Source: a virus. Taken from it: a DNA stretch of 29,496 bases. The notes beneath the pieces were generated by a model, which saw only the letters and a program-made list of their open reading frames with translations, did no database searches and was not told where the DNA came from. Below, piece by piece: positions 11,035-29,496 of this stretch; positions within the stretch are counted from its first letter, which is position 1; each line of letters begins with the position of its first letter. The stretch covers positions 1-29,496 of IMG/VR virus record IMGVR_UViG_3300027365_000264. One strand, written 5' to 3'. A program made the position numbers and the translations under genes.

Positions 11035-13431
11035 TTAGAGGGCCGGTGCCGGTCCCCTGCTACGCTTGACGTAGAAGCCTTCCCAGTCTGCACTGAGGAA
11101 TGAACTTGGGAGTGCGCTATCATTTTGGATGACAATCGAAGTGCCAATGTTCTGGCTGATAATAGGAACAGAGAAACGTCCTGAAGACACACTGTAGCTA
11201 CCAATGGTAGACGATGCGGATCCTAGGATTTTTCCTGAGTATGTGTAGGTGTATGCTTCGCGACCTGCAGGGGTCACAATGACATCGAACAGTCCTGCAT
11301 CAGCGTAGTTGAAGGAGACCTTACGAAGCTGTAGACGAGCTTCAGTGTCTGACCGTTGGCCACCACCTGGGGCTGGGTTCTTCACGGTGATCGTAGAGAG
11401 CTGATACTTCAACGTGTACTTCTTACCGAATGCCACAGAGGCACCGGTGAGGTTACCTGCAACCCTTGCTGTAGATCCATTCCAGACGACGTTGAAGATC
11501 TCGCCACTCTTGAATGTTGGGTGGTCCTTGATCACGACTTGGTAATTACCAACGCTAGGGTTGAATCCAAGAGTCGTCAGGTTGATTGTCGTGAAGCCGG
11601 ATGCGTAGGTCAGAGCTGAAGAATCCAGCTGAACCTTGCGATCCAAGTGAACCAAGTATGGTTCGTCCTGTCCAATATCACCAAGAGACACGCTGATCTT
11701 CTCGATGTAGACACCGTCTGCACGGTTGATCAGCAGGAAGAGATCCGAGGCAATGAAGTCAGCATTGAGAATCGTGATATCATCGTCAAACGTCCACTTG
11801 GACCATGATGACTGCAGCTTCTCATTGTCTGCCCAGAAGTACTTGTAGACGTAGATCGAGCTTGGCTCGTTACGGGTCAGTGCAACAAGGATGTCCTCAT
11901 TGGGAGCCGTAGCGATCTTGAAGACATTCGCCGGTACATAGGTAGGAAGATGCCCAGTGATGTCCTGAGAATCATTCGCTGCATTGTTAAGATCGGTGAA
12001 GTACTCACGGAATGCTGACCACTCACCCTTATCCACTGCGAAGTAAATGTTCTTGCCGACACCTACAGGCTTGGCCACCACGTTGCACGGGAACTCTGTA
12101 GCCACCTTGATGCCCACGGTCTTAGGAGTCAGCAGGTCATTCTGATCGATGATGAACTGAGACTGCTCAGAGAACAGCAGGAGCTGCTTGTTGAATGGGA
12201 CTGCATGCTTCAGCAGGGATACCTTGGTGTGGCTTGCATTCACATCAATCGGATCGGAATCCAACAGGTCAGTGACGGTGGTGCGCAGGAAGTTGAAGTA
12301 CTCTCCAGCCTCAGAGAAAATCACGCCCTCATCTGCAAGGAAGCCCAGACGGTTTCTGTAGAAGAAGATGTCAGAGATCGTGCGGGTAACGAAGGATGGC
12401 TGCGGGTTGGAGGTGAGATCACCTGCAACTCGGTCAGCCCATGAGGCCTGCTTCATCGTGAAGGAGCCATCAGATTCTCTAACGAGAACGTGCGGCATGG
12501 ATGCATCGGTGAACCCAAGGCTTATGCCTGGCTTCGGGCATTCCTGCCAGACCCCTACTCCACTGGTGCTGTAGTTCGTATTGAATTTCACATAGTAGGA
12601 GTCGAACTTGTTGTTCGTATCTCCAGTACCGGTGATCTCCACAGTGAACCCATTGACATCAGGCTGCGCAGGGAGATCTGCAAACTTCTGCAGACGATCC
12701 TTGATGGCAACCATGCCACCACCGTTGAAGCCATCTTCGGCACGTATAGTGAAATCTGAAGATGTCCTAGAGATGTATATCGTGGCTCCGGCAATTGACC
12801 TTGTCCAACCATTGGCAGTGGTGATGCCGTTAGCATTCAGCGAGGAGTTCAGCTGACCTGCGATGTAGTCTGTTGAGATCTGGCTGACCATCGAAGCGGT
12901 CGAACCATCGGGAGTCGTAAAGGTACCCTTGGTCACACCGTCAATAAGGATGTTGTAGGTCTTGCCATAGTTGCCAGCCTTGACGTTGATCAGGGCCTCA
13001 AAGGGACGAGACGCGGTCAGGGTAGAGTTTGCCGCAACAGTCTTGGTCTTGTTTACAAGGAACGTGTAGTCAGCCACGGTGACAGCAGCGAATGATGCGG
13101 AAGGTGTGGCAGCATCGAGGTAGGACTTCCCATTTGGGAAAGCCACGGTCTTCTCATTGCCAGCCACATCGTAGACCTTGAGATCACCATTGGTGACCAC
13201 AGTGATGTAACGTTCATTCAGATCACGGTTGATCGTGTGGATGAAACAGTCAGCCAGAGGCGTTGACTGGATCTTCTTGAGGTGCTTCGTCGGTGGCCTC
13301 TTCTTCAATCCCTGAGAGACTGTCGAAAGGCCGTTCTCTTGGATCTCTCCTTGAGAACTCAGACGAAGAGTGAAGGGTTGCTGAGATACACCGTTGACAA
13401 AATTAGGAATGTTCGAAGAGACGAGGGACAT
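11035..13431 (-). CDS. Tail tubular protein B (T7 gp12-like)
   Basis: The protein has 798 residues, nearly the same as T7 gp12 (794), which forms the nozzle of the short tail. The N-terminus, PNFVNGVSQQPFTLR followed by GEIQENG and GLKKRPPT, matches the gp12 signature (GGISQQP...GLQKRPP). Later segments such as ISDIFFYRNRLGFLADE and LLLFSEQSQFIID are also typical. The ATG at 13431 has TAGG upstream and lies 2 bases after the tail tubular A stop. The C-terminus overlaps possible early starts of the gp13-like gene. Confidence 0.95.
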   Translation of the reverse strand: MSLVSSNIPNFVNGVSQQPFTLRLSSQGEIQENGLSTVSQGLKKRPPTKHLKKIQSTPLADCFIHTINRDLNERYITVVTNGDLKVYDVAGNEKTVAFPNGKSYLDAATPSASFAAVTVADYTFLVNKTKTVAANSTLTASRPFEALINVKAGNYGKTYNILIDGVTKGTFTTPDGSTASMVSQISTDYIAGQLNSSLNANGITTANGWTRSIAGATIYISRTSSDFTIRAEDGFNGGGMVAIKDRLQKFADLPAQPDVNGFTVEITGTGDTNNKFDSYYVKFNTNYSTSGVGVWQECPKPGISLGFTDASMPHVLVRESDGSFTMKQASWADRVAGDLTSNPQPSFVTRTISDIFFYRNRLGFLADEGVIFSEAGEYFNFLRTTVTDLLDSDPIDVNASHTKVSLLKHAVPFNKQLLLFSEQSQFIIDQNDLLTPKTVGIKVATEFPCNVVAKPVGVGKNIYFAVDKGEWSAFREYFTDLNNAANDSQDITGHLPTYVPANVFKIATAPNEDILVALTRNEPSSIYVYKYFWADNEKLQSSWSKWTFDDDITILNADFIASDLFLLINRADGVYIEKISVSLGDIGQDEPYLVHLDRKVQLDSSALTYASGFTTINLTTLGFNPSVGNYQVVIKDHPTFKSGEIFNVVWNGSTARVAGNLTGASVAFGKKYTLKYQLSTITVKNPAPGGGQRSDTEARLQLRKVSFNYADAGLFDVIVTPAGREAYTYTYSGKILGSASSTIGSYSVSSGRFSVPIISQNIGTSIVIQNDSALPSSFLSADWEGFYVKRSRGPAPAL

Positions 13432-13433
13432 AA

Positions 13434-14018
13434 TTACCTATCAAGAATTCTCATCACATCATAATTGCCTGTGAGGATGTTATAGTCTGCGGTCTTTGAT
13501 TCGAACCGCTTCAGGGCGACACGAGCGCGTACCTCGTCCTTCTCCGAGAATGAACCGAGGAGATCAGAGCCAACGACTCGCTGCTGAAAGACACGGGCAG
13601 CACGTACAGAAATGTAGTGGCGAGCAGCCTGAGGAAGCTCATCGAACTCCAGCAGAAGGGTCATGTCGCAGGAGATGCTTTTTGTGAACACGAAGGTGTG
13701 CTCAGTGCGATTGTAAAGACGGGTTCCACGAATGCTCACATCTAGGTTGCGATCTTTTTCTGACGTATCTATTTCGATACAATTGGACGGCACAGAGATT
13801 GCGCCAGTGTCCGAGCTTGGCGTGAGCACAAAGTTTTTCTCAGTGTTGAAATGCCAACCCTCTTCCTGAACCTGAATGGAAACTTCCTTCAGAATCTGGC
13901 GAGCGATGGATGCATCTACGAAACCCGTAGCAGCATCTAGAGAACTAATCGGTGATTCACCAATGGTCCCTAGCATGATATTAAGAGCGTCGAGTTCCGA
14001 TGTTAAAGTAAGGGCCAT
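13434..14018 (-). CDS. Tail tubular protein A (T7 gp11-like adaptor)
   Basis: The protein has 194 residues, as expected for T7 gp11 (196), the ring adaptor joining portal and nozzle. It starts with the characteristic LDALNIMLGTIGESPI helix-turn and continues with EGWHFNTEKNF, IEIDTSEKD and RHYISVRAARVFQQR. The start is an ATG at 14018. The capsid gene and a strong terminator lie just upstream, so its expression depends on read-through or on a promoter I did not see. Confidence 0.95.
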   Translation of the reverse strand: MALTLTSELDALNIMLGTIGESPISSLDAATGFVDASIARQILKEVSIQVQEEGWHFNTEKNFVLTPSSDTGAISVPSNCIEIDTSEKDRNLDVSIRGTRLYNRTEHTFVFTKSISCDMTLLLEFDELPQAARHYISVRAARVFQQRVVGSDLLGSFSEKDEVRARVALKRFESKTADYNILTGNYDVMRILDR

Positions 14019-14034
14019 AAGTCAATCCAATAAG

Positions 14035-14070
14035 AAAAAAAAGGGCCACCCTATTGCTAGAGTGACCCTT
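14035..14070 (-). terminator. Strong intrinsic terminator after the capsid gene
   Basis: On the minus strand, AAGGGTCACTC - TAGCAATA - GGGTGGCCCTT forms an 11-bp stem (with three G-T pairs), followed by eight T residues. It sits 16 bases after the capsid stop. T7 carries its late terminator at the same place after gene 10, where partial termination makes capsid mRNA the most abundant; the same role is inferred here. Confidence 0.93.
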
Positions 14071-14086: not shown

Positions 14087-15040
14087 TTAGATGGTCTTCA
14101 GTTCGATAGCGCATGAAGGACGCAGGACACCGTGGCCCATAGCGTACTTAGCAACCATCAGAGTACCCTGACGACGGATGTCGTACTCGGACTCCATTGC
14201 CAGATCCATCAGCTTGACGGTACCAACAGCATCCTTGGTAGCCACAACACCGACGGTGTTCGTGAATACGCCAGCATACTTGTTGCTCGTACCAGCTTCC
14301 AACGAAGCGTTAGCAATAGTAGCGCCGAAAGGAGCGTGGTTGGTCTTGACGATCTCGATACCTGCAACGCGCAGAACCTTGCCGTCAGCGTAGACACCAG
14401 CGCCACCCCAGTCCTTGTTCATGACCTTGGTGTTAGCAGCCAGACGGTAGTAAGCGGCAGGAGCCAAGAATGCGCAACGACCATCTTCCGAGATGTTCTT
14501 CTCGTCCATTGCCTGAGCAGCAGCGAACAGCGAAGCAACCAGCGCCTCACCCGTAGCATCGCTCAACAGCGTGGCGGAAGTAACCGAACCACCAGCAGCT
14601 TCGCCAGTGACAGGGGCTGAACCGCGAGCAGCCAGAATGGCCAACTGCAGCAACTGCTTGTCTTTGGTGTAAGCCAGCTTACGACCAATTTCGGTCGAGT
14701 AAGGAGCGCGGACATCGTAGTGGTTCATAGCTTCGTCAATCGAAGCCAAGAATGCATGGCTGATCAGCAGGTCGTCGATGGTGATGACGATCTCGTTTGC
14801 AGGCACAGCCGAACCAACGATCTCTGCGCCAGGCACATGGTATTCAGCACCAATGGAGCCGAGAATAGGGAACTGAGCCGACTTGCCAGAAGCGATAGTA
14901 CGCTCTGCAAAACGACCAGCAGTAACAGTAGCCTCTTGAAAAGCGGTGAGAACTTCACCAGCGAAAACTTTGAGGAATAGAGCCTTAGCGTCGCCAGCAG
15001 TATTAATCTGACCTACGCGGCTAGGAGTAGCATTTGCCAT
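14087..15040 (-). CDS. Major capsid protein (T7 gp10-like, HK97 fold)
   Basis: The protein has 317 residues. Typical features are GQINTAGDAKALFLKVFAGEVL at the N-terminus (shown here only in part), FPILGSIGAEYHVPG, a DDLLISHAFLASIDEAMNHYD helix region and AYYRLAANTKVMNKDWGG. T7-like capsid proteins are 345 residues or slightly shorter, so this one is compact. I chose the ATG at 15040 (MANATPSR). The frame stays open to a GTG at 15097, but the added residues (GRRGCSTFLQ) look non-coding and fall in the hairpin region. The leader is AT-rich, with only GAGA as a ribosome-binding site. I found no convincing slippery site for a longer frameshifted form. Confidence 0.95.
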   Translation of the reverse strand: MANATPSRVGQINTAGDAKALFLKVFAGEVLTAFQEATVTAGRFAERTIASGKSAQFPILGSIGAEYHVPGAEIVGSAVPANEIVITIDDLLISHAFLASIDEAMNHYDVRAPYSTEIGRKLAYTKDKQLLQLAILAARGSAPVTGEAAGGSVTSATLLSDATGEALVASLFAAAQAMDEKNISEDGRCAFLAPAAYYRLAANTKVMNKDWGGAGVYADGKVLRVAGIEIVKTNHAPFGATIANASLEAGTSNKYAGVFTNTVGVVATKDAVGTVKLMDLAMESEYDIRRQGTLMVAKYAMGHGVLRPSCAIELKTI

Positions 15041-15063
15041 AATATATTTATCTCGTGTGAGTT

Positions 15064-15087
15064 GAAGAAAGGTTGAGCAACCTCTTC
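15064..15087 (-). promoter_or_regulatory. Stem-loop in capsid leader containing a promoter-like half-site
   Basis: On the minus strand, GAAGA-GGTT-GCTC-AACC-(TT)-TCTTC folds into a 9-bp stem with a two-base bulge, 24 bases before the capsid ATG. It has no T-tract, so it is not a terminator. It contains AGGTTGCTCA (15074-15083), which is also the first half of the promoter-like element upstream of the primase. It could be an RNase III-type processing or mRNA-stabilising hairpin, or a remnant promoter. Confidence 0.5.
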
Positions 15088-15151
15088 GTCCCGACACACA
15101 TCACGCAGAGTTATCCACCGCAGTGGGCAAAGGTCGTGTAATCGTTTCTTA

Positions 15152-15163
15152 GAATTGCAATTC
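15152..15163. repeat. 12-bp perfect palindrome
   Basis: GAATTGCAATTC is a perfect inverted repeat. It is flanked by CGTT(T)CTTA and TAAGAACG, which can pair as an outer stem. It lies in the gene-free region before the capsid gene. A protein-binding site or part of a larger RNA hairpin are both possible. Confidence 0.5.
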
Positions 15164-15344
15164 CACCGCGTAAGAACGCAGTGCGGAATGTCTCTTCTTC
15201 ACAGAGAAAGGTGCTGGTCTATTCCCAGCTGTCAGACGCTAAACCGTAGCGACAACGGACCTAAGGAGGGTTCGTGGGGAGATTCTTGTACTGGTTCTCC
15301 CGTGACCAGAAATTTCCAAGTGGTCCTTAGGACAAGCAAATGGA

Positions 15345-15770
15345 TTACTTGGTGACACCCTTGATCTTCTCAGCCGTGCGGTATGCACCGAGGCCAAGCA
15401 AACCAAAGAGAAGCGTCATTAGTGTATCAAGATTGAGCATGGGCAAAGTTGCCTCAACCTTATACCAAGCGAGAAAGAATGTTGCGAATGGCAGCACCAC
15501 AAACTGGTACGCCAAGCCCATCACGCAGGTCCAACCTACGGCTGGCCTCCAGCCTGACTTGAAAAGACTGTCAGAGCCTGCCTCGACTTCATTGACCTTG
15601 AGTTGCCCGAGAGCCAACTGCGTCTCAGCTTCGAGAACCTTAAGCTCCCCTGCCTGCTGCATCTCAAAGAGTTTCAGCTTGGCTTCTGCAGCCTGCTGAG
15701 GATTGGGAAAGATCTTGTCAAAGACCTTCCCCGCGAGATCAAAAAGACCTCCGAGGAGAAGGGGATTCAT
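15345..15770 (-). CDS. Holin with C-terminal transmembrane segments (3-TM family)
   Basis: The protein has 141 residues. After an N-terminal hydrophobic patch (NPLLLGGLFDLAGKVFDKIF) comes an Ala/Glu/Leu-rich helix (residues 25-65, with KLKLFEMQQAGELKVLEAE as its core). Then SGWRPAVGWTCVMGLAYQF leads into two strong transmembrane segments, about residues 78-100 and 110-128. The WRPxxGW motif and layout match the GTA_holin_3TM-like family. Holins open the inner membrane and let the amidase reach the cell wall. In T7 the holin (gp17.5) lies after the fibre; here it sits between scaffold and capsid. ATG start with AAGGA 6 bases upstream. Confidence 0.85.
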   Translation of the reverse strand: MNPLLLGGLFDLAGKVFDKIFPNPQQAAEAKLKLFEMQQAGELKVLEAETQLALGQLKVNEVEAGSDSLFKSGWRPAVGWTCVMGLAYQFVVLPFATFFLAWYKVEATLPMLNLDTLMTLLFGLLGLGAYRTAEKIKGVTK

Positions 15771-15779
15771 GGTGTGTCC

Positions 15780-16583
15780 TTAAATGACGTTGGAGCGGCC
15801 AAGCTTGGCTTGAACCTTGGCGCGGTAGGCTGGATCGTTCTTGTACAGAGGATCCTTCATAGCGGCAGTTACCTGAGCCATCGACTCAAAGACATCAGCG
15901 GAAGAAGCGGAGGCCTGACCACCAAGCAATCGCTGGGGGTCTGAACCATTGGCTTTGTCGAACTGAGCCTTGAGACCCATAGCTGCCAGCTTGGCGTTCT
16001 CTGGCTTCCCTGAGCCGATCTGAGTGTTGTACGCATCGATCTCTGCAGGGGTCAGATTGGCCTTGGCCCAAGTGACCATGTCACCATAGGCGTCAGAACC
16101 GCCAACCTCAGCCATGACTTGGCTTTCGAACTGAACAGTGCGAGCCTTCTGGCCCTCGATGAACTGGTCCACCAGCGCCTTGTCATAGCCAGCAGCCGCG
16201 AGCTTCTCGTAGCTGTCCGTTGACAGTTCACCATTCTTGGCAAACTCGGCATTGAAGTCCTGAAGAACCAGACCCTTGGGTGCCAGAGCCTTCTCTACGT
16301 CTGCCTCCGTGGCAGCAGCGGGATCGGCTACCGGCGTTGCTGGGGTTTCTGCAGGTGCCTTAGGAGCACCGAGCTTCGACTCCAGCTCAGAGTAGGCCTT
16401 GGCCATCTCTTCAGCGGTCTTGAATTTCTCAGGGAGCCACTGTGGGCGATCTTCAGGGGGAGTACCTTCAGCGCCCTCGACGGGCAGTGGAGCATTAGCC
16501 TTATCGACCAAGTCCATCATCTTCTGATCGTGATCCTCAGGGGCTTCCTGAGGAGTACTCTGAATAACAACTGTATCTACCAT
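15780..16583 (-). CDS. Capsid scaffolding protein (T7 gp9-like)
   Basis: The protein has 267 residues and is acidic and Ala/Glu/Pro-rich. It has a disordered N-terminus (TPPEDRPQWLPEKFKTAEE) and a long helical part, and ends in a short basic tail (RAKVQAKLGRSNVI). The RPxWLPEKFKtaE.m..aY.eLe motif is typical of T7-type scaffolds. It lies between portal and capsid, as in T7. It should co-assemble with capsid subunits and leave during maturation. Confidence 0.93.
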   Translation of the reverse strand: MVDTVVIQSTPQEAPEDHDQKMMDLVDKANAPLPVEGAEGTPPEDRPQWLPEKFKTAEEMAKAYSELESKLGAPKAPAETPATPVADPAAATEADVEKALAPKGLVLQDFNAEFAKNGELSTDSYEKLAAAGYDKALVDQFIEGQKARTVQFESQVMAEVGGSDAYGDMVTWAKANLTPAEIDAYNTQIGSGKPENAKLAAMGLKAQFDKANGSDPQRLLGGQASASSADVFESMAQVTAAMKDPLYKNDPAYRAKVQAKLGRSNVI

Positions 16584-16593
16584 TGATGTCCTA

Positions 16594-16770
16594 TTAGTAG
16601 GTCACGACAATCATACCGCTTGAATAAACGCGGGTATGTTTGGCTTTTGGATCTACTGTGAATTTAACTTTATCTGCACCCTCACCCACGTACTCGACGT
16701 TGGCTGGAGCCTTAGGGGTTTCCTTAGGCTCTTTCTTAGGGGCAGCACTTGTTGGGATAGCATTAGCCAC
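16594..16770 (-). CDS. Small 58-aa protein between portal and scaffold
   Basis: A GTG start at 16770 lies inside the end of the portal gene (the portal stop is 16763-16765), with GGAG 6 bases upstream. The product begins MANAIPTSAAPKKEPKETPK, is Lys/Pro-rich for 22 residues, and then turns beta-rich with VEYVGEGADKVKFTVD and ends TRVYSSGMIVVTY. It fills the gap between portal and scaffold exactly and has a good ribosome-binding site, so I judge it real. I do not recognise the family. The position suggests a head or connector accessory protein. Confidence 0.75.
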   Translation of the reverse strand: MANAIPTSAAPKKEPKETPKAPANVEYVGEGADKVKFTVDPKAKHTRVYSSGMIVVTY

Positions 16771-18361
16771 CAGGTGCTCCTTCTTGTTGTGCAGCGGCTG
16801 AGTCAGCCATGTTCTGCTTCATCAGAGCGCCACCTTGGTTGATCAGATTTGGCATTGCCTGTTGCATCATCGCCATCTGTTGCTGCTGTTGCATCTCTTG
16901 CTGCAGCTCTTCAGCACTCTTGACGAGGCCCTTCATGTCGATGCCCAGAGACGTACCCAAGCGCATCAAAGCGTCAGGCTTGTTGATCTCTGGAGGCAAC
17001 TGAGCGATCTGCACAGCACCTTGGAAGAACGTGTTGAGCTTGGTCATGTCGTTGCCACGACCCAAGGCCTCCATGCCGGTCACGATGACTGGCTTGACGG
17101 TACCCTTAGGCAGCACAGGAAGCTTCTTCTTGCGCTCCATGGCGAACATGATGCGGTTGACCAAAGGCAACTGAAACTCTTGGGAGAGGATCGAGTAGAT
17201 GCCGCCCAGAGCTGACTCCAGTTCACCCGCCATGTAGCGGATCTCTTCAGCAGTCACCCGTTCTCCGTTGCGTTGCACAGCGGAGTTCAACAGGAAGGCG
17301 TAGGCCAAGCGTTCGTTGATGGTGTTGATGGTCTCCAGAGCAACACGGAAATCATTGTACTTCTGGAGTTGCAGGACCGTGACATCAGCAGCATTGCCCT
17401 CTTCCACTGCCCCGTTAGGAGCTTCTGCAAGAGTCTGCTGGCTGGTGGTGCCATTAGGATTGACGAGGAAGATAACCTTGGCTGCTGCTGCAGAACCCTC
17501 AACGATGGCCTGCGAGAGACCCTCTAGCGACTTGATGTCACCGAGATACTCTTCAACATAACCACGGCCATAGTTCTCACCGTCCACCTTGGTGAAGCGT
17601 ACAGGTATCCATGCGGTCTTCTCTTTCGGGTAAGTACCCTCAGAGCCTGGCACAATCATGCCCTTGATTTCCTGATGAATCTTCCAGCCACCATCTTCCA
17701 GACGAACATGGGTGTAGATGTCACAGGTTTTCGAGTTGCTGACCTTGTCGTGATAGTCGGTGTCTTCCTTATCGTAGCCCAGCATCTCTTGGACATCTTT
17801 GGGAAGCGTGTCTGGTGAGACCACTTCCTTGACGATGATGTCGAGCACATTGCCCATAGGATCTCTACGGACGACATACTTCTCCAAAGGAAACACCCGC
17901 ATACCACCTGTGTCAGGCATGTAGAGGAGAGCGTTACCGGAGACCAGAAGATGCTTCATGGCTTCGAAGGCTGAGACGCGGATAGCGCCTGCTTCGACTT
18001 CAGACTGTACGGCACGTTCAATCTTGTTCAGACCTTCCTCGACCTGTGCTCGCATGCCTTCCTGCTGCGTCAGTTCTTCCAGAGTGAAGTCATCAATCTG
18101 TAGGCGGAAGAATGGCGAGTTAGGAGGCAGCAGTGCAAGCAGCAGCTTTGAGGCAAGGTTGTTCACGCCACGAGCACCAACACCTTGATACGGAGTGTAG
18201 TACTTGGTGGCGCTTGAGTGACCACTAGGAGGGATCAGAGTCGGGAGAGTGTACTTGCTGCAATCCCGTGCTCGATCCAAGAAGGTAAGGCGATCAGACT
18301 CCAGCCTGGCATAAAGCCCTGCTGCAGAGCCTTTCTGCTCATTCGGTTTCTGGTATTCCAT
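16763..18361 (-). CDS. Portal (head-tail connector) protein, T7 gp8-like
   Basis: The protein has 532 residues, as for T7 gp8 (536). Family features include the N-terminal YARLESDRLTFLDRARDCSKYTLP, then GARGVNNLASKLLLALLPPN, GNALLYMPDTGGMRVFPL and RVTAEEIRYMAGELE. The C-terminus is Gln/Met-rich (residues about 490-515), a usual trait of this family. It forms the dodecameric ring at one vertex through which DNA is packaged and ejected. ATG start with AAAGG upstream, 8 bases after the preceding small gene. Confidence 0.96.
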   Translation of the reverse strand: MEYQKPNEQKGSAAGLYARLESDRLTFLDRARDCSKYTLPTLIPPSGHSSATKYYTPYQGVGARGVNNLASKLLLALLPPNSPFFRLQIDDFTLEELTQQEGMRAQVEEGLNKIERAVQSEVEAGAIRVSAFEAMKHLLVSGNALLYMPDTGGMRVFPLEKYVVRRDPMGNVLDIIVKEVVSPDTLPKDVQEMLGYDKEDTDYHDKVSNSKTCDIYTHVRLEDGGWKIHQEIKGMIVPGSEGTYPKEKTAWIPVRFTKVDGENYGRGYVEEYLGDIKSLEGLSQAIVEGSAAAAKVIFLVNPNGTTSQQTLAEAPNGAVEEGNAADVTVLQLQKYNDFRVALETINTINERLAYAFLLNSAVQRNGERVTAEEIRYMAGELESALGGIYSILSQEFQLPLVNRIMFAMERKKKLPVLPKGTVKPVIVTGMEALGRGNDMTKLNTFFQGAVQIAQLPPEINKPDALMRLGTSLGIDMKGLVKSAEELQQEMQQQQQMAMMQQAMPNLINQGGALMKQNMADSAAAQQEGAPGG

Positions 18362-23794: not shown

Positions 23795-24003
23795 AGGTAC
23801 CCTTCGTCACGGAGGAGGCCCAGACCCTCTTCCGTTATTCGCCATATTCGCCCGTATGAATGGGGAGCAATTTTTGTGGTGATCAACCCAAGGCTAGCCA
23901 AGGCTGCAACCTGTTGGTCGTACTGTCTTACGTAGTTCGACTGAAGGCTGAGGCCATGGCAATAAGCCTTGTGAAGTATCTCGTTGGTCGTGGCTCTCGT
24001 CAT
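23791..24003 (-). CDS. Small winged-helix-like protein
   Basis: The product has 70 residues: MTRATTNEILHKAYCHGLSL, then helices YVRQYDQQVAALASLGLI, then a beta hairpin RIWRITEEGLGLLRDEGYL. The order (helix, helix, LGLI turn, RxWxITeeG strand, Leu-rich helix) is that of a winged helix-turn-helix. It could bind DNA or serve as a small regulator, but I see no direct sign of its target. I start at the ATG at 24003, which overlaps the HNH stop as ATGA. The frame continues to 24084 inside the HNH gene, which is less likely. Confidence 0.68.
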   Translation of the reverse strand: MTRATTNEILHKAYCHGLSLQSNYVRQYDQQVAALASLGLITTKIAPHSYGRIWRITEEGLGLLRDEGYL

Positions 24004-24338
24004 AGCTTCTTGGAGACAATGCCGGATGGAAGTTTCCAACGCTGCTTGTTTCCCAAGATTGCGTGCTCCGTACCGTCGATACACTCTAAGTGCTCTACGT
24101 TACAGCAGCCTCTGTTGCTACACAGGTGGTTGATTTCGAAGCCTTCTGGAATAGGACCACGCTTCAACTCCCACATGATCCGATGGAACATCAGAGGCTT
24201 TCCGTTGATTCGGCCACCGAGGTTGTAGCGGAAGTATCCGTCTGGGTTGACCTTATGACTGGCCACAACCCAGCAAGAAGTCGGCAGCTGTACAAAACGC
24301 AAAGGCCGTGGGGTGTTCCGTGAACTAGTGAGTTTCAC
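24000..24338 (-). CDS. HNH homing endonuclease behind DNA polymerase
   Basis: The product has 112 residues with an HNH_3-type core: SCWVVASHKVNPDGYFRY, MFHRIMWELKRGPIPEG, then FEINHLCSNRGCCNVEHLE. The histidines and the Asn/Cys pattern (NHxCxNRxCCNxEHLE) are those of free-standing phage HNH endonucleases. These nick or cut DNA of related phages and spread themselves. I chose the GTG at 24338 because AAGGA precedes it with good spacing; the frame is open to another GTG at 24365. It overlaps the end of DNA polymerase by 14 bases, a common insertion place for such genes. Confidence 0.88.
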   Translation of the reverse strand: MKLTSSRNTPRPLRFVQLPTSCWVVASHKVNPDGYFRYNLGGRINGKPLMFHRIMWELKRGPIPEGFEINHLCSNRGCCNVEHLECIDGTEHAILGNKQRWKLPSGIVSKKL

Positions 24339-26109
24339 TCCAATCCTTTCCGACCTTTGACTCACATGCCAAAGGACAACGAAAGTTAAATGTCAGTTGT
24401 ACTGAGGCCATCGCCTCGACAACCACCTGTTGAAATGCTGCAGCGATCTCAGATGAGCGGACTGCTACCTGAATTTCATCGTGACTGAATGCGCAGAATG
24501 CGAAGTCGCCATCCCAACCATGTTTGTATCCACGGTCCAGCATCATCTTCTCGGCAACAATGATCCACCGCTTACAAACCATCGCACCGGCTGACTGCAG
24601 AAGCGTGTTCAATGCAGCGTGTGAACTTCGAACGTGTACTCTGCGCCCGTCAAGCCCGACAAGATAGCCGCGTTTAGCAGCCTGTTGAACAGCATCGACA
24701 AGTCGTCCGAGGGCTGGCAGCGACTTAAGAAACTTCGTCTTGAGTTTCCGTCCTTCACCTGCAGAACCGCCAACGATGGAACCAATCTTTGCGTCTCCTG
24801 CTCCATAGAGGAATGCATAAATAAATGTCTTTGCTTGGTTGCGAGTCTCTAGGCCAGCAGCCTTTTGATTCTCTGTGTGAATGTCACCGCCGAGGAGAAC
24901 CTCAGCGTACTTGCCACCGTCCCACTTCGCCATGAAGTGAGCCAGGCACCTTAGCTCCAAGCCTGAAGCATCAGCACCAACAAGAGTCCACCCAGCAGGA
25001 ACAGTAAAGAGTTCTCGACACTCATGTCCATAGGGTGATTGCGACGAAGGTACCTGAGAGATGTTGGGGTAGCTATGAGTAGCGCGACCAGTGACAGCAC
25101 CATTAGGATTAATAGATCCATGGATCTTGCCTTTCTTCTCGCAGTTCATCCACGCTTGCTTGCCCTCAAACAGCTGGGAGATACGCTTCTGGACCAAGAG
25201 ATATTCAGTGAGTTGTTTACAAGGTTCATAGGTCAGCTTGCCGAGAACCACTTCATCGACCTGCGGCTTGCCACCTTCGGTAAAGTCCACAGGCTTCCAG
25301 CCGTAGAGAGTCATCAGTCGATCTGCGATGTGATCACGAGACGACGGGTTGAACTCAATGGTCTTAGTCTTCGGAACAGGCACACCCTTCACATACCCTC
25401 TGGCCTTGTTGTTGACCTTAGGTACGAAGTCGGGGAGCTGGATGTCCCAAGAGCCAAAGTACTCCTTGAGTTCTCTCTCCAGCTCCCCACGGCGCTGCAC
25501 TAGGCGAGCCAACAGGGCTGCGGCTTTCTCCATGTCAAAGCAGAAACCATTGCGTTCCTGCTGCGCCATGAGCCAAGCCACCTGATGCTCCAGCTCCAGT
25601 GCTTGTTGAGAATAGTTCTCATTCACCAGCTTCTGATACAGGTGCGCGGTGACCTCTACGTCTTGGACGCAGTAGTCCAGCATCTCCTGAGAGAATGTCT
25701 CCCAGCCACCCGTGTAGTCACCCTTGTAGTTGCCGATGCGATGACCCCATGCAGCCAGTGAGTGTGATCCAAATAGTTTGCCAGGCAGCTTCTCCTGCTT
25801 GAGGAGAATGTTGTCGGTGTCCTTGACGTTGGAATAGACAAGGCGCGTGGCGACTAGGGTATCGAAGACCTTACTCTCATCCACGGTGAACCATGGGTAG
25901 AGCTTCTTGATGACGGGGATGTCGTACTTAATCACGTTGTGCCCAGTGATAGGACCATCAGACCAAAGAAGAGCCTCAATTCCCTCCTCCATGTTCTCTG
26001 CTGTGAACGTCTTTACGATTCCGGTATCAGTCCACTTCATAACCAAGCAATGAATCTTAGAAACTTCATCAAGCAAACCATCTGTTTCCAAATCGAATAT
26101 AAGTGCCAC
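24325..26109 (-). CDS. Family A DNA polymerase (T7 gp5-like)
   Basis: The protein has 594 residues, shorter than T7 gp5 (704) but complete. The 3'-5' exonuclease domain is present with IFDLETDG (Asp6, Glu8), NVIKYDIPV and YCVQDVEVT. In the polymerase domain, motif A is VGADASGLELRCLAHF (Asp380), the O-helix is RNQAKTFIYAFLYGAG (Arg423, Lys427, Tyr431; the spacing equals T7 Arg518, Lys522, Tyr526), and motif C is FSHDEIQVAV (His543, Asp544). The shortening probably affects the thumb and thioredoxin-binding region, so dependence on host thioredoxin is uncertain. The start is a GTG at 26109 with AAAGGG 7-8 bases upstream, just after tRNA-Gly. Confidence 0.96.
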   Translation of the reverse strand: MALIFDLETDGLLDEVSKIHCLVMKWTDTGIVKTFTAENMEEGIEALLWSDGPITGHNVIKYDIPVIKKLYPWFTVDESKVFDTLVATRLVYSNVKDTDNILLKQEKLPGKLFGSHSLAAWGHRIGNYKGDYTGGWETFSQEMLDYCVQDVEVTAHLYQKLVNENYSQQALELEHQVAWLMAQQERNGFCFDMEKAAALLARLVQRRGELERELKEYFGSWDIQLPDFVPKVNNKARGYVKGVPVPKTKTIEFNPSSRDHIADRLMTLYGWKPVDFTEGGKPQVDEVVLGKLTYEPCKQLTEYLLVQKRISQLFEGKQAWMNCEKKGKIHGSINPNGAVTGRATHSYPNISQVPSSQSPYGHECRELFTVPAGWTLVGADASGLELRCLAHFMAKWDGGKYAEVLLGGDIHTENQKAAGLETRNQAKTFIYAFLYGAGDAKIGSIVGGSAGEGRKLKTKFLKSLPALGRLVDAVQQAAKRGYLVGLDGRRVHVRSSHAALNTLLQSAGAMVCKRWIIVAEKMMLDRGYKHGWDGDFAFCAFSHDEIQVAVRSSEIAAAFQQVVVEAMASVQLTFNFRCPLACESKVGKDWSETH

Positions 26110-26137
26110 GCTGTCCCTTTCGACGTGCGTTAATGTA

Positions 26138-26213
26138 TGGAGCGGACATCGGGAATCGAACCCGAGCTGTTTGGGTGGAAGCCAAAAGTGCTACCTTCAG
26201 ACACTCTGTCCGC
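26138..26213 (-). tRNA. tRNA-Gly (UCC)
   Basis: The 76-base minus-strand sequence folds into a full cloverleaf. The acceptor stem is GCGGACA/TGTCCGC, the D-stem GTGT/GCAC and the anticodon stem TTTGG/CCAAA. The loop is CTTCCAC, giving anticodon UCC, and the T-arm is TCGGG-TTCGATT-CCCGA. Discriminator T and an encoded CCA end complete it. It closely resembles bacterial tRNA-Gly(UCC). It lies in the same transcript as the replication genes, 28 bases before DNA polymerase, so it must be cut out of the mRNA by host RNases. It would supply GGA/GGG decoding. Confidence 0.95.
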
Positions 26214-26217
26214 AATT

Positions 26218-26391
26218 TTAAATGTCGTTGACGCAGAGGCCTTTAACCTTCAGGCCTCTCTCAGCGTAATACTTCTGTGCTTCAACGGCTTGCTGCTTGC
26301 ACTCTTCCATCTTGGTGAAGCCTGGGAATGCCTTGACATCCTCCAGATCACCATTGAGTGAGAATAGGAACAACAGCAGGATGACGTTCAT
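26218..26391 (-). CDS. Small secreted or membrane-anchored protein (57 aa)
   Basis: An ATG at 26391 follows AAGGG at good distance and overlaps no coding base of the upstream winged-helix gene except near its stop (TGACATG). The product starts MNVILLLFLFSLNG, a short hydrophobic signal or anchor, followed by EDVKAFPGF and a charged helix with EECKQQAVEAQ. It ends GLKVKGLCVNDI, with two cysteines 23 residues apart that could form a disulfide outside the cytoplasm. I do not know the family by name, though small phage and prophage proteins of this build are common. It fills the space before tRNA-Gly exactly. Confidence 0.78.
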   Translation of the reverse strand: MNVILLLFLFSLNGDLEDVKAFPGFTKMEECKQQAVEAQKYYAERGLKVKGLCVNDI

Positions 26392-26392
26392 G

Positions 26393-28687: not shown

Positions 28688-29095
28688 TTATTCTTTCAGC
28701 CACGCATCAGGAATGTCCTTGTCTGCGTAGAGGAACCCATGCTTCTCGCACCAGTCTGCGTAAGTGGTCTTGGACCGCTTTGAGATCTTGGTCTTTGAGT
28801 TACTGAAGACGAACCTGATGTCGTACTCTGGGTGTTGTTTCTGGACGAGCAAATGTTTCTGACGATCCTCCGTGAGGTATCGACCCTTGCTCTCGATAAT
28901 GATGCCGTTGGGTAGCAGGAAGTCTGGCGTGTACTTGGCTTGCTTCTCTGGCTTCACGTAAGGGATAACCAGTTCTTCAAACAAAAACTTCACACCTTTC
29001 AATGTGAGGTTCTCTGCGATTCGCTCCTCTAAACCGGAGCGAAAGCCGTACTTCATACCAACCTGTTTTTCGGACTGTTTCTTTTTCGTGGCCAC
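28688..29095 (-). CDS. Endonuclease I, Holliday junction resolvase (T7 gp3-like)
   Basis: The product has 135 residues (T7: 149). Catalytic residues have the same spacing as T7 Glu20, Asp55, Glu65 and Lys67: here SGLEER (Glu23), YTPDFLLPNG (Asp58) and IIIESKGR (Glu68, Lys70). The C-terminal part YADWCEKHGFLYADKDIP also matches. It resolves branched DNA and helps degrade the host chromosome. The start is a GTG at 29095 that overlaps the end of the HNH gene by 43 bases, with a weak ribosome-binding site. An ATG 13 codons later is possible but would shorten the N-terminus compared with T7. Confidence 0.94.
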   Translation of the reverse strand: MATKKKQSEKQVGMKYGFRSGLEERIAENLTLKGVKFLFEELVIPYVKPEKQAKYTPDFLLPNGIIIESKGRYLTEDRQKHLLVQKQHPEYDIRFVFSNSKTKISKRSKTTYADWCEKHGFLYADKDIPDAWLKE

Positions 29096-29394
29096 AAATA
29101 TTGTCGTCTTATATTTTCTTGCTGCGTAACTGCCTCCAAATGTGATGGGTTTACACAGCGACGGTTACGACAGGCGTGGTCTATCTGCCAGCCTGCTGGG
29201 ATATGTCCAATGAATGTCAGATAGGACAAACGGTGTGCCAAATAGAATACATTCTCTACCCACGCATTGCCGTAGCCGTGACTGCCTAGGGACTTAACCC
29301 AATTCCAGCAGCCACTAGCCTGATCTACGTTGATACGGGAGGAGATGTATTCTTGAGGGTCAGAAGTCCTCAGAATTTTCTTCGGCAAAATCAT
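29053..29394 (-). CDS. HNH homing endonuclease between SSB and endonuclease I
   Basis: The product has 113 residues with an HNH_3-type core: GCWNWVKSLGSHGYGNAW, YLAHRLSYLTFIGHIPAGW, then QIDHACRNRRCVNPSHLEAVT. The DHxCxNRxCVNPxHLE motif is the standard zinc/catalytic region. It overlaps the end of SSB (35 bases with the ATG at 29394) and the start of endonuclease I (43 bases), so it is packed between two T7 core genes. The start is unsure: an ATG at 29430 and a GTG at 29466 are in frame, and none has a clean Shine-Dalgarno. It is likely a free-standing homing endonuclease. Confidence 0.87.
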   Translation of the reverse strand: MILPKKILRTSDPQEYISSRINVDQASGCWNWVKSLGSHGYGNAWVENVFYLAHRLSYLTFIGHIPAGWQIDHACRNRRCVNPSHLEAVTQQENIRRQYLWPRKRNSPKNRLV

Positions 29395-29496
29395 TCTGCA
29401 CTGCGGGGGTAACCTCCGCTTCGTAGCCATCCTCTTCACCAAAGCCGTAGGCTTCAGCACCTGCACCGCCTGAGTATTCCTTCAGGTCGATGATCT
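29360..29496 (-). CDS. Single-stranded DNA-binding protein, C-terminal end (T7 gp2.5-like)
   Basis: A frame open from the right edge ends with TGA at 29360-29362. The last 45 residues start IIDLKEYSGGAGAEAYGFGEED and run into an acidic tail ending NDFAEENSEDF. An acidic C-terminus with a final Phe is the hallmark of T7 gp2.5, where it contacts DNA polymerase and primase-helicase. The position before endonuclease I is also that of gp2.5. Only the tail is visible, so the DNA-binding fold cannot be checked. The start lies outside the window. Confidence 0.85.
   Translation of the reverse strand, partial: IIDLKEYSGGAGAEAYGFGEEDGYEAEVTPAVQNDFAEENSEDF

Follow-up and report, generated by a model that had tools for sequence, protein, structure and literature searches.

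What is the 304-bp stretch that lies directly before the capsid gene of this virus, and what might it do? The window analysed here, a 29,496-base viral fragment from IMG/VR, carries a T7-like morphogenesis block on its minus strand, with all genes in this part running in the same direction:

16763-18361, minus strand: portal (ORF map, Pfam)
15780-16583, minus strand: scaffold (ORF map, Pfam)
15345-15770, minus strand: 3TM holin, upstream of the gap (Pfam PF11351, E 2e-26)
15041-15344, minus strand: non-coding leader, 304 bp, from the holin stop to the start codon of the major capsid protein (ORF map and sequence)
14087-15040, minus strand: major capsid protein (MCP) gene (Pfam Gp10A-like, E 1e-85; start codon at 15040)
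14041-14070, minus strand: intrinsic terminator directly after the MCP gene (13 pairs, then TTTTTTC)
13434-14018, minus strand: tail tube (ORF map, Pfam)
11035-13431, minus strand: nozzle (ORF map, Pfam)

An earlier, sequence-only reading of this locus had placed the gap at exactly these coordinates, with a holin gene upstream, and was right on both counts: the interval runs from the MCP start codon to the upstream stop at 15345, and the Pfam match identifies the holin. By gene order, the gap is the 5' leader of the MCP gene and, as all genes lie on the minus strand, the relevant transcript is the reverse complement of the strand shown. The gap had also been called exceptional; it is real, but the window has further sizeable gaps at 16584-16762 and 26110-26392 (283 bp), the latter, between DNA polymerase and a small gene, holding a tRNA-Gly (tcc) at 26138-26213 (minus). 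Two HNH-endonuclease-like ORFs (24000-24365 and 29053-29466, minus) were recognised by eye; HNH genes are also annotated, close to MCP, in phages CRP-804 and Eyrgjafa.

The sequence-only reading had described a set of nested inverted repeats within the gap. All are present, including CCTAAGGA/TCCTTAGG at 15260-15267/15324-15331, the 12-bp palindrome GAATTGCAATTC and a leader hairpin, AGGTTGAGCAACCT, near 15069-15084, but they are not all nested, since two sets cross on the minus strand (CTGGT/ACCAG with GGGAGA/TCTCCC, and CCGT/ACGG with CGCT/AGCG). Folding both strands of the gap against shuffled sequences, as had been suggested, gave z-scores of -1.35 (minus) and -1.05 (plus); these are unremarkable, and the repeats alone are therefore not above chance. 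A structured region does exist, in that a selected RNA is present, but it occupies 15190-15051, mostly outside the listed repeats. The parts of the leader are as follows:

15260-15331, minus strand: window-specific stem CCTAAGGA/TCCTTAGG, enclosing about 56-60 nt missing from relatives
15211-15266, minus strand: 5' accessory domain, common only to nearer relatives (alignment)
15051-15190, minus strand: conserved RNA core of 140 nt (P1, linker, P2 and P3), the only place matched by the models R1, R2 and R3 described below (136.9 bits; covariation)
15162-15187, minus strand: P1, a bulged hairpin (5' strand 15187-15176, 3' strand 15171-15162)
15140-15161, minus strand: P1-P2 linker, holding most of the palindrome GAATTGCAATTC (15152-15163)
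15103-15139, minus strand: P2, an irregular hairpin (apical stem 15126-15123/15118-15115; UGCG loop 15122-15119)
15055-15099, minus strand: P3, a long interrupted hairpin whose 3' base adjoins the ribosome-binding site (covariation; predicted in single folds)
15051-15054, minus strand: GAGA, a weak Shine-Dalgarno-like site 10-13 nt before the MCP ATG (sequence and alignment)

In P1, single-nucleotide bulges flank one nearly invariant C-G pair, and in P2 an internal loop sets C15127 against AUAA at 15114-15111 (AYAA where conserved), next to the pair G15128-C15110 and a variable outer stem. The GAGA of the window is GAGG, AAGG or AAGGAG in relatives. A hairpin in the 5' accessory domain, GCUGG/CCAGC, becomes GCCGG/CCGGC or GCCCG/CGGGC elsewhere, and the domain is 92% paired (slid registers 12-43%) in a set of only 8 sequences; the same 8 hint weakly at a pseudoknot, CCGU/ACGG at 15244-15258 (minus), with CCGC/GCGG in locus L012. 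The window-specific stem holds the GGGAGA/TCTCCC and CTGGT/ACCAG repeats and does not fold above its shuffles (z -0.35); the most visible repeats of the gap thus lie mainly in a 5' extension that only the window or its near relatives possess. Two further candidates were discarded: the palindrome GAATTGCAATTC as a hairpin of its own, which shares bases with P1 and is not conserved among relatives, and a small ORF in the core, where no frame is stop-free in all 13 sequences compared.

The case for a selected RNA rests on comparison, and both conservation and covariation among relatives, whose lack the sequence-only reading had named as counting against it, are clearly present. A tblastn-confirmed search for MCP relatives yielded 80 IMG/VR loci; upstream of MCP in the nearer ones the gap is about 75-86% identical, and its 3' half can be aligned even where the MCP is only about 60% identical, the 5' part being common to nearer relatives only. 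Model R1, made from a 13-sequence seed alignment and a hand-built structure, found 58 matches in 81 sources, every one (58/58) on the MCP strand and, in loci with a known MCP start, directly before MCP, the weak matches (E 0.001-0.3) included. Within the resulting 58-row alignment 90.4% of 1,443 cells are paired, against 69% when shuffled and 38-48% in slid registers, and two-sided changes occupy 313 cells where 85 were expected. The widened covariance models R2 and R3 behave like R1, and the largest alignment, A4 (70 rows from 70 diverse loci), has 87% of 2,074 cells paired (slid registers 36-51%) with 502 two-sided changes against 152 shuffled. Its P1 is paired in 98.6% of cells, with two-sided changes in 9/9 pairs, and its P2 apical stem in 100%; P3 has two-sided changes in all pairs, yet only 76-83% of its cells are paired.

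These alignments, built with MAFFT and models mostly from metagenomic fragments and with E-values that are roughly calibrated, were fitted to the structure, and for this reason we sought two tests that are free of it. The first is a regular pattern for P2 that leaves two central pairs free: on viral contigs, 64/64 distinct hits among the matches listed are complementary at the free positions, in 9 different combinations. The second, mutual information between alignment columns, is blind to structure and gives its highest ranks to the pairs modelled in P1 and P2; it also adds the P2 pairs 15128-15110 and 15129-15109 (the latter a U-U mismatch in the window) and a pair closing the P1 loop, 15176-15171. 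G-U pairs are many in P1, one pair being U-G in 27/61 sequences, and since these would be C-A mismatches on the other strand, the functional molecule should be RNA in the MCP sense. Taken as a whole, the last ~140 nt of the gap (15190-15051, minus) are almost certainly a real structured RNA under strong selection.

The element is tied to a single gene. On viral contigs, 116/119 matches listed for the P2 pattern are followed, after 83-143 nt and on their own strand, by an MCP start; of the remaining three, one is separated from its MCP by 610 nt that probably include an intron, and two are at the ends of contigs. The same pattern, run over 84,980 bacterial and archaeal species genomes, matched only 3 times, each time 84-99 nt before a phage-type MCP, so that a mimic of a host RNA was rejected; with both collections combined, 119/122 matches listed lie directly upstream of an MCP gene. 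A looser motif for the P2 tip (a stem of at least 3 pairs, a UNCG loop and an ANAMY tail) has 56 occurrences in the 16.9 kb that precede MCP genes, against 4 in 1.05 Mb elsewhere. The RNA is also kept when the upstream gene changes: some relatives that retain it have the 3TM holin replaced or absent, as in L012 and L013, where no holin is found and the scaffold gene stands directly before the RNA.

Among isolates, matches directly before MCP are found in Bordetella phage BB8, in Pelagibacter phages HTVC019P, HTVC134P and Eyrgjafa, in Pseudomonas phage LUZ100, in Rhizobium phages Pasto, TRX32-1 and RHEph01, and in Roseobacter phages CRP-361, CRP-125 and CRP-804, although for the weakest of these (26-30 bits) position is the main support. 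No clear model match was obtained in cyanophages 9515-10a, S-CBP3 and P-SCSP1d, but the P2-tip motif is present where it would be expected. Before the MCP of T7, Konnatiik, ProddE and YIMV22061 there is neither a model match nor the motif (ProddE has one motif match, far from its MCP), and the T7 locus (L218) is unmatched by R2 or R3. Divergent variants were seen upstream of MCP in L033, L039, L040 and L046, where GGCUCUCUGCGGAGAAYACCC replaces the usual P2 and the P1-like hairpin is a different one. Separately, the MCP of some relatives is split near codons 53-56 by an insert of some 500-600 nt (L012 1890-2501; L032 2400-2992; also L013, L014, L015, L027, L034 and L181); in L012 Rfam assigns the insert to the group I introns (E 4e-17), and it does so in L032 below the curated cut-off.

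So strict a linkage might also be expected of an RNA needed for virion assembly or DNA packaging, whose place beside the capsid gene would then be mere genomic neighbourhood. T7, however, manages without the leader RNA, cis action explains the linkage equally well, and we know of no precedent for such an RNA in T7-like phages; nothing was found to support the packaging-related site that the sequence-only reading had listed among its four options, and we consider this explanation very unlikely.

Where transcription begins is known for one carrier. The study that mapped the transcript ends of LUZ100 by ONT-cappable-seq reports that its MCP has a local promoter of the phage and, downstream, a strong terminator (PMC10134795). 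This promoter, phi7, is some 560 nt upstream of MCP, which places the element within the transcript and not at the promoter. A DNA-level element (a promoter, terminator or origin), with its hairpins incidental, would suit an intergenic site before the most expressed gene, and one weak terminator-like site does exist at 15229-15213; against it stand compensatory changes that make use of G-U pairs on one strand, the position of the mapped promoter upstream of the element and the single-copy state of a conserved 16-mer at the 5' end in near relatives, and we find it hardly tenable. The 'promoter cluster' suggested from the sequence is not supported: the mapped promoter and the single-copy 16-mer speak against it too, and no sigma-70 site was found (0 pairs of -35/-10 hexamers in 14900-15500). 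No convincing repeat of a promoter motif common to the gaps of the window emerged, and a phage-promoter reading of ATCCTACTACCTTAGG, which is T7-promoter-like by eye, was dropped as this sequence is single-copy in each genome that carries it and absent from the window.

The 3' ends mapped in LUZ100 bear on processing. Its terminators are annotated as 100-base boxes, which the methods of PMC10134795 suggest to span -60 to +40 around the mapped end; calibration from one terminator, the intrinsic T16, whose T-run at L085 3500-3506 agrees with box start + 60 (3504), is consistent with this. The calibrated end of T15 is L085 2339, within the 5' strand of P1 and beside the bulged A; neither T14 nor T15 is labelled intrinsic, and no intrinsic terminator is predicted at the P1 end. 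T15 is thus a possible endonucleolytic cut, albeit a single site whose exact base depends on a one-terminator calibration, and the chance of an end landing in the 160-nt element is ~9% (22 such ends, 37 kb). T14 (L085 2078-2177) has a calibrated end at 2138, next to the first base of a tRNA-Asn (2140), and is probably a tRNA-processing 3' end and not a terminator. This tRNA-Asn (GTT) sits just before the capsid leader in both LUZ100 (L085 2140-2215) and RHEph01 (L090 2246-2319); it gave rise to the idea of a tRNA-like element, which was abandoned when ARAGORN detected none at the element in the window and 40 relatives. LUZ100 gp40 (L085 2380-2508), annotated 'hypothetical protein', falls within the conserved RNA, and it is unlikely to be a gene.

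With covariation on the capsid strand and a LUZ100 3' end inside the element, the 'processed leader RNA' is the best fit of the four options offered from the sequence alone. A small RNA, another of the four, would be cut from the capsid mRNA and act in trans; the core is indeed compact and conserved, and the LUZ100 ends before a tRNA and inside P1 do look like processing, but the fixed 83-143 nt spacing to the MCP start in very diverse genomes, with almost no copy elsewhere, argues for a role in cis, and we regard release as unlikely.

Synthesising these observations, we propose a model in which the leader acts on its own message. That it is cis-acting on the capsid mRNA is very probable; on balance, we favour the fuller proposal of a conserved RNA in three parts, by which the 5' end of that mRNA, its stability and its translation would be determined. 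Transcription through the gap would give the capsid mRNA its 5' leader, which would fold into P1, P2 and P3. In P1 and P2, unpaired nucleotides that hardly vary keep fixed places, so that a protein probably recognises these two hairpins; it might be a host ribonuclease, a ribosomal protein or a phage protein. P3, because its duplex ends at the ribosome-binding site, would either stop upstream structure from covering this site or be a target for a nuclease. Jointly, the three would tune an mRNA needed in very large amounts, from a capsid unit closed by its own terminator. It is this combination (conserved unpaired nucleotides, P3 at the ribosome-binding site, the cis position and the terminator after MCP) that suggests a leader for processing, stability or translation, and we give about an even chance to these being its main mode of action. 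Two points weigh on the other side: P3 is variable and poorly alignable outside the clade of the window, such that any function tied to it may not be general, and T7 makes abundant capsid without a leader RNA.

The conserved bulges and internal-loop nucleotides also resemble a protein site of another kind, and the leader RNA always precedes one gene, MCP. Coat-protein feedback loops are known from RNA phages, and ribosomal proteins repress on their own leaders; by analogy, capsid or scaffold protein might bind P1/P2 and repress translation when free subunits accumulate. Gp10A-like capsid proteins are, however, not known to bind RNA, and no structure that sequesters the ribosome-binding site, which lies outside P3, is conserved, so we allow such an operator a fairly small chance; it is a little more doubtful still that a coat-protein feedback loop of this type extends to a large fraction of T7-like dsDNA phages. 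A riboswitch that senses a ligand and controls the capsid gene would be compatible with the size and conserved internal loop of the RNA, but the lack of a terminator between P2 and the start codon and of conserved sequestration, with a strong ribosome-binding site left free in many relatives, makes it most improbable, as do a controlled gene that is not metabolic and the want of any Rfam riboswitch match. We return to a cis-acting leader for processing, stability or translation as the preferred reading.

In kind, the leader is familiar; as a family, it is new. Compensatory pairs on the gene strand and a fixed site before one orthologous gene place it among structured cis-regulatory mRNA leaders. 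The covariance models of Rfam 15 gave no match in the window at the curated cut-off (a search that the sequence-only reading had suggested) and none credible near the element at a relaxed E-value, and in relatives found only the group I introns inside MCP and a tRNA; no description was found in the literature, although a large 2017 survey of 224 candidate RNAs may mention it. The gene 10 leader of T7 (phi10 promoter, short stem and ribosome-binding site) likewise stands before the capsid gene, and the capsid units of T7 and LUZ100 are both reported to have a local promoter and a downstream terminator, but the T7 leader has only about 60 nt from promoter to gene and is unmatched by our models. 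RNase III R sites of T7-type phages are long irregular mRNA hairpins without P1/P2 domains; P3 is likewise a long irregular hairpin, but the LUZ100 RNA 3' end falls in P1 and not in P3. Ribosomal-protein leaders share a structured 5' leader tied to one gene for an abundant structural protein, but the present leader has no homology to them in Rfam and is an operator only putatively. The put antitermination RNAs of HK022 are a phage leader with bulged hairpins that act on host RNA polymerase. The bulged hairpins are alike, whereas the MCP of LUZ100 is transcribed by a phage polymerase (PMC10134795). The manA and wcaG motifs, structured cis RNAs of marine phages, are tied to metabolic genes in T4-like cyanophages (PMC2864571); they too are phage-borne structured cis RNAs, whereas the leader belongs to the capsid gene and has no Rfam match.

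The comparisons establish a fold, a strand, a fixed place before the capsid gene and a spread over many T7-like lineages, and the leader RNA probably controls the amount of capsid protein made. Pelagiphages and related phages rank with the most abundant viruses of the sea. Covariance models of the leader would annotate a non-coding region that is now partly filled by doubtful small ORFs such as LUZ100 gp40, and because the leader is carried by cultured phages whose hosts grow readily (Pseudomonas for LUZ100, and the hosts of the Rhizobium phages), its function is directly testable. A conserved, uncatalogued RNA on the structural gene that these phages need most would mean a general point of control over capsid production, one that the T7 model lacks.
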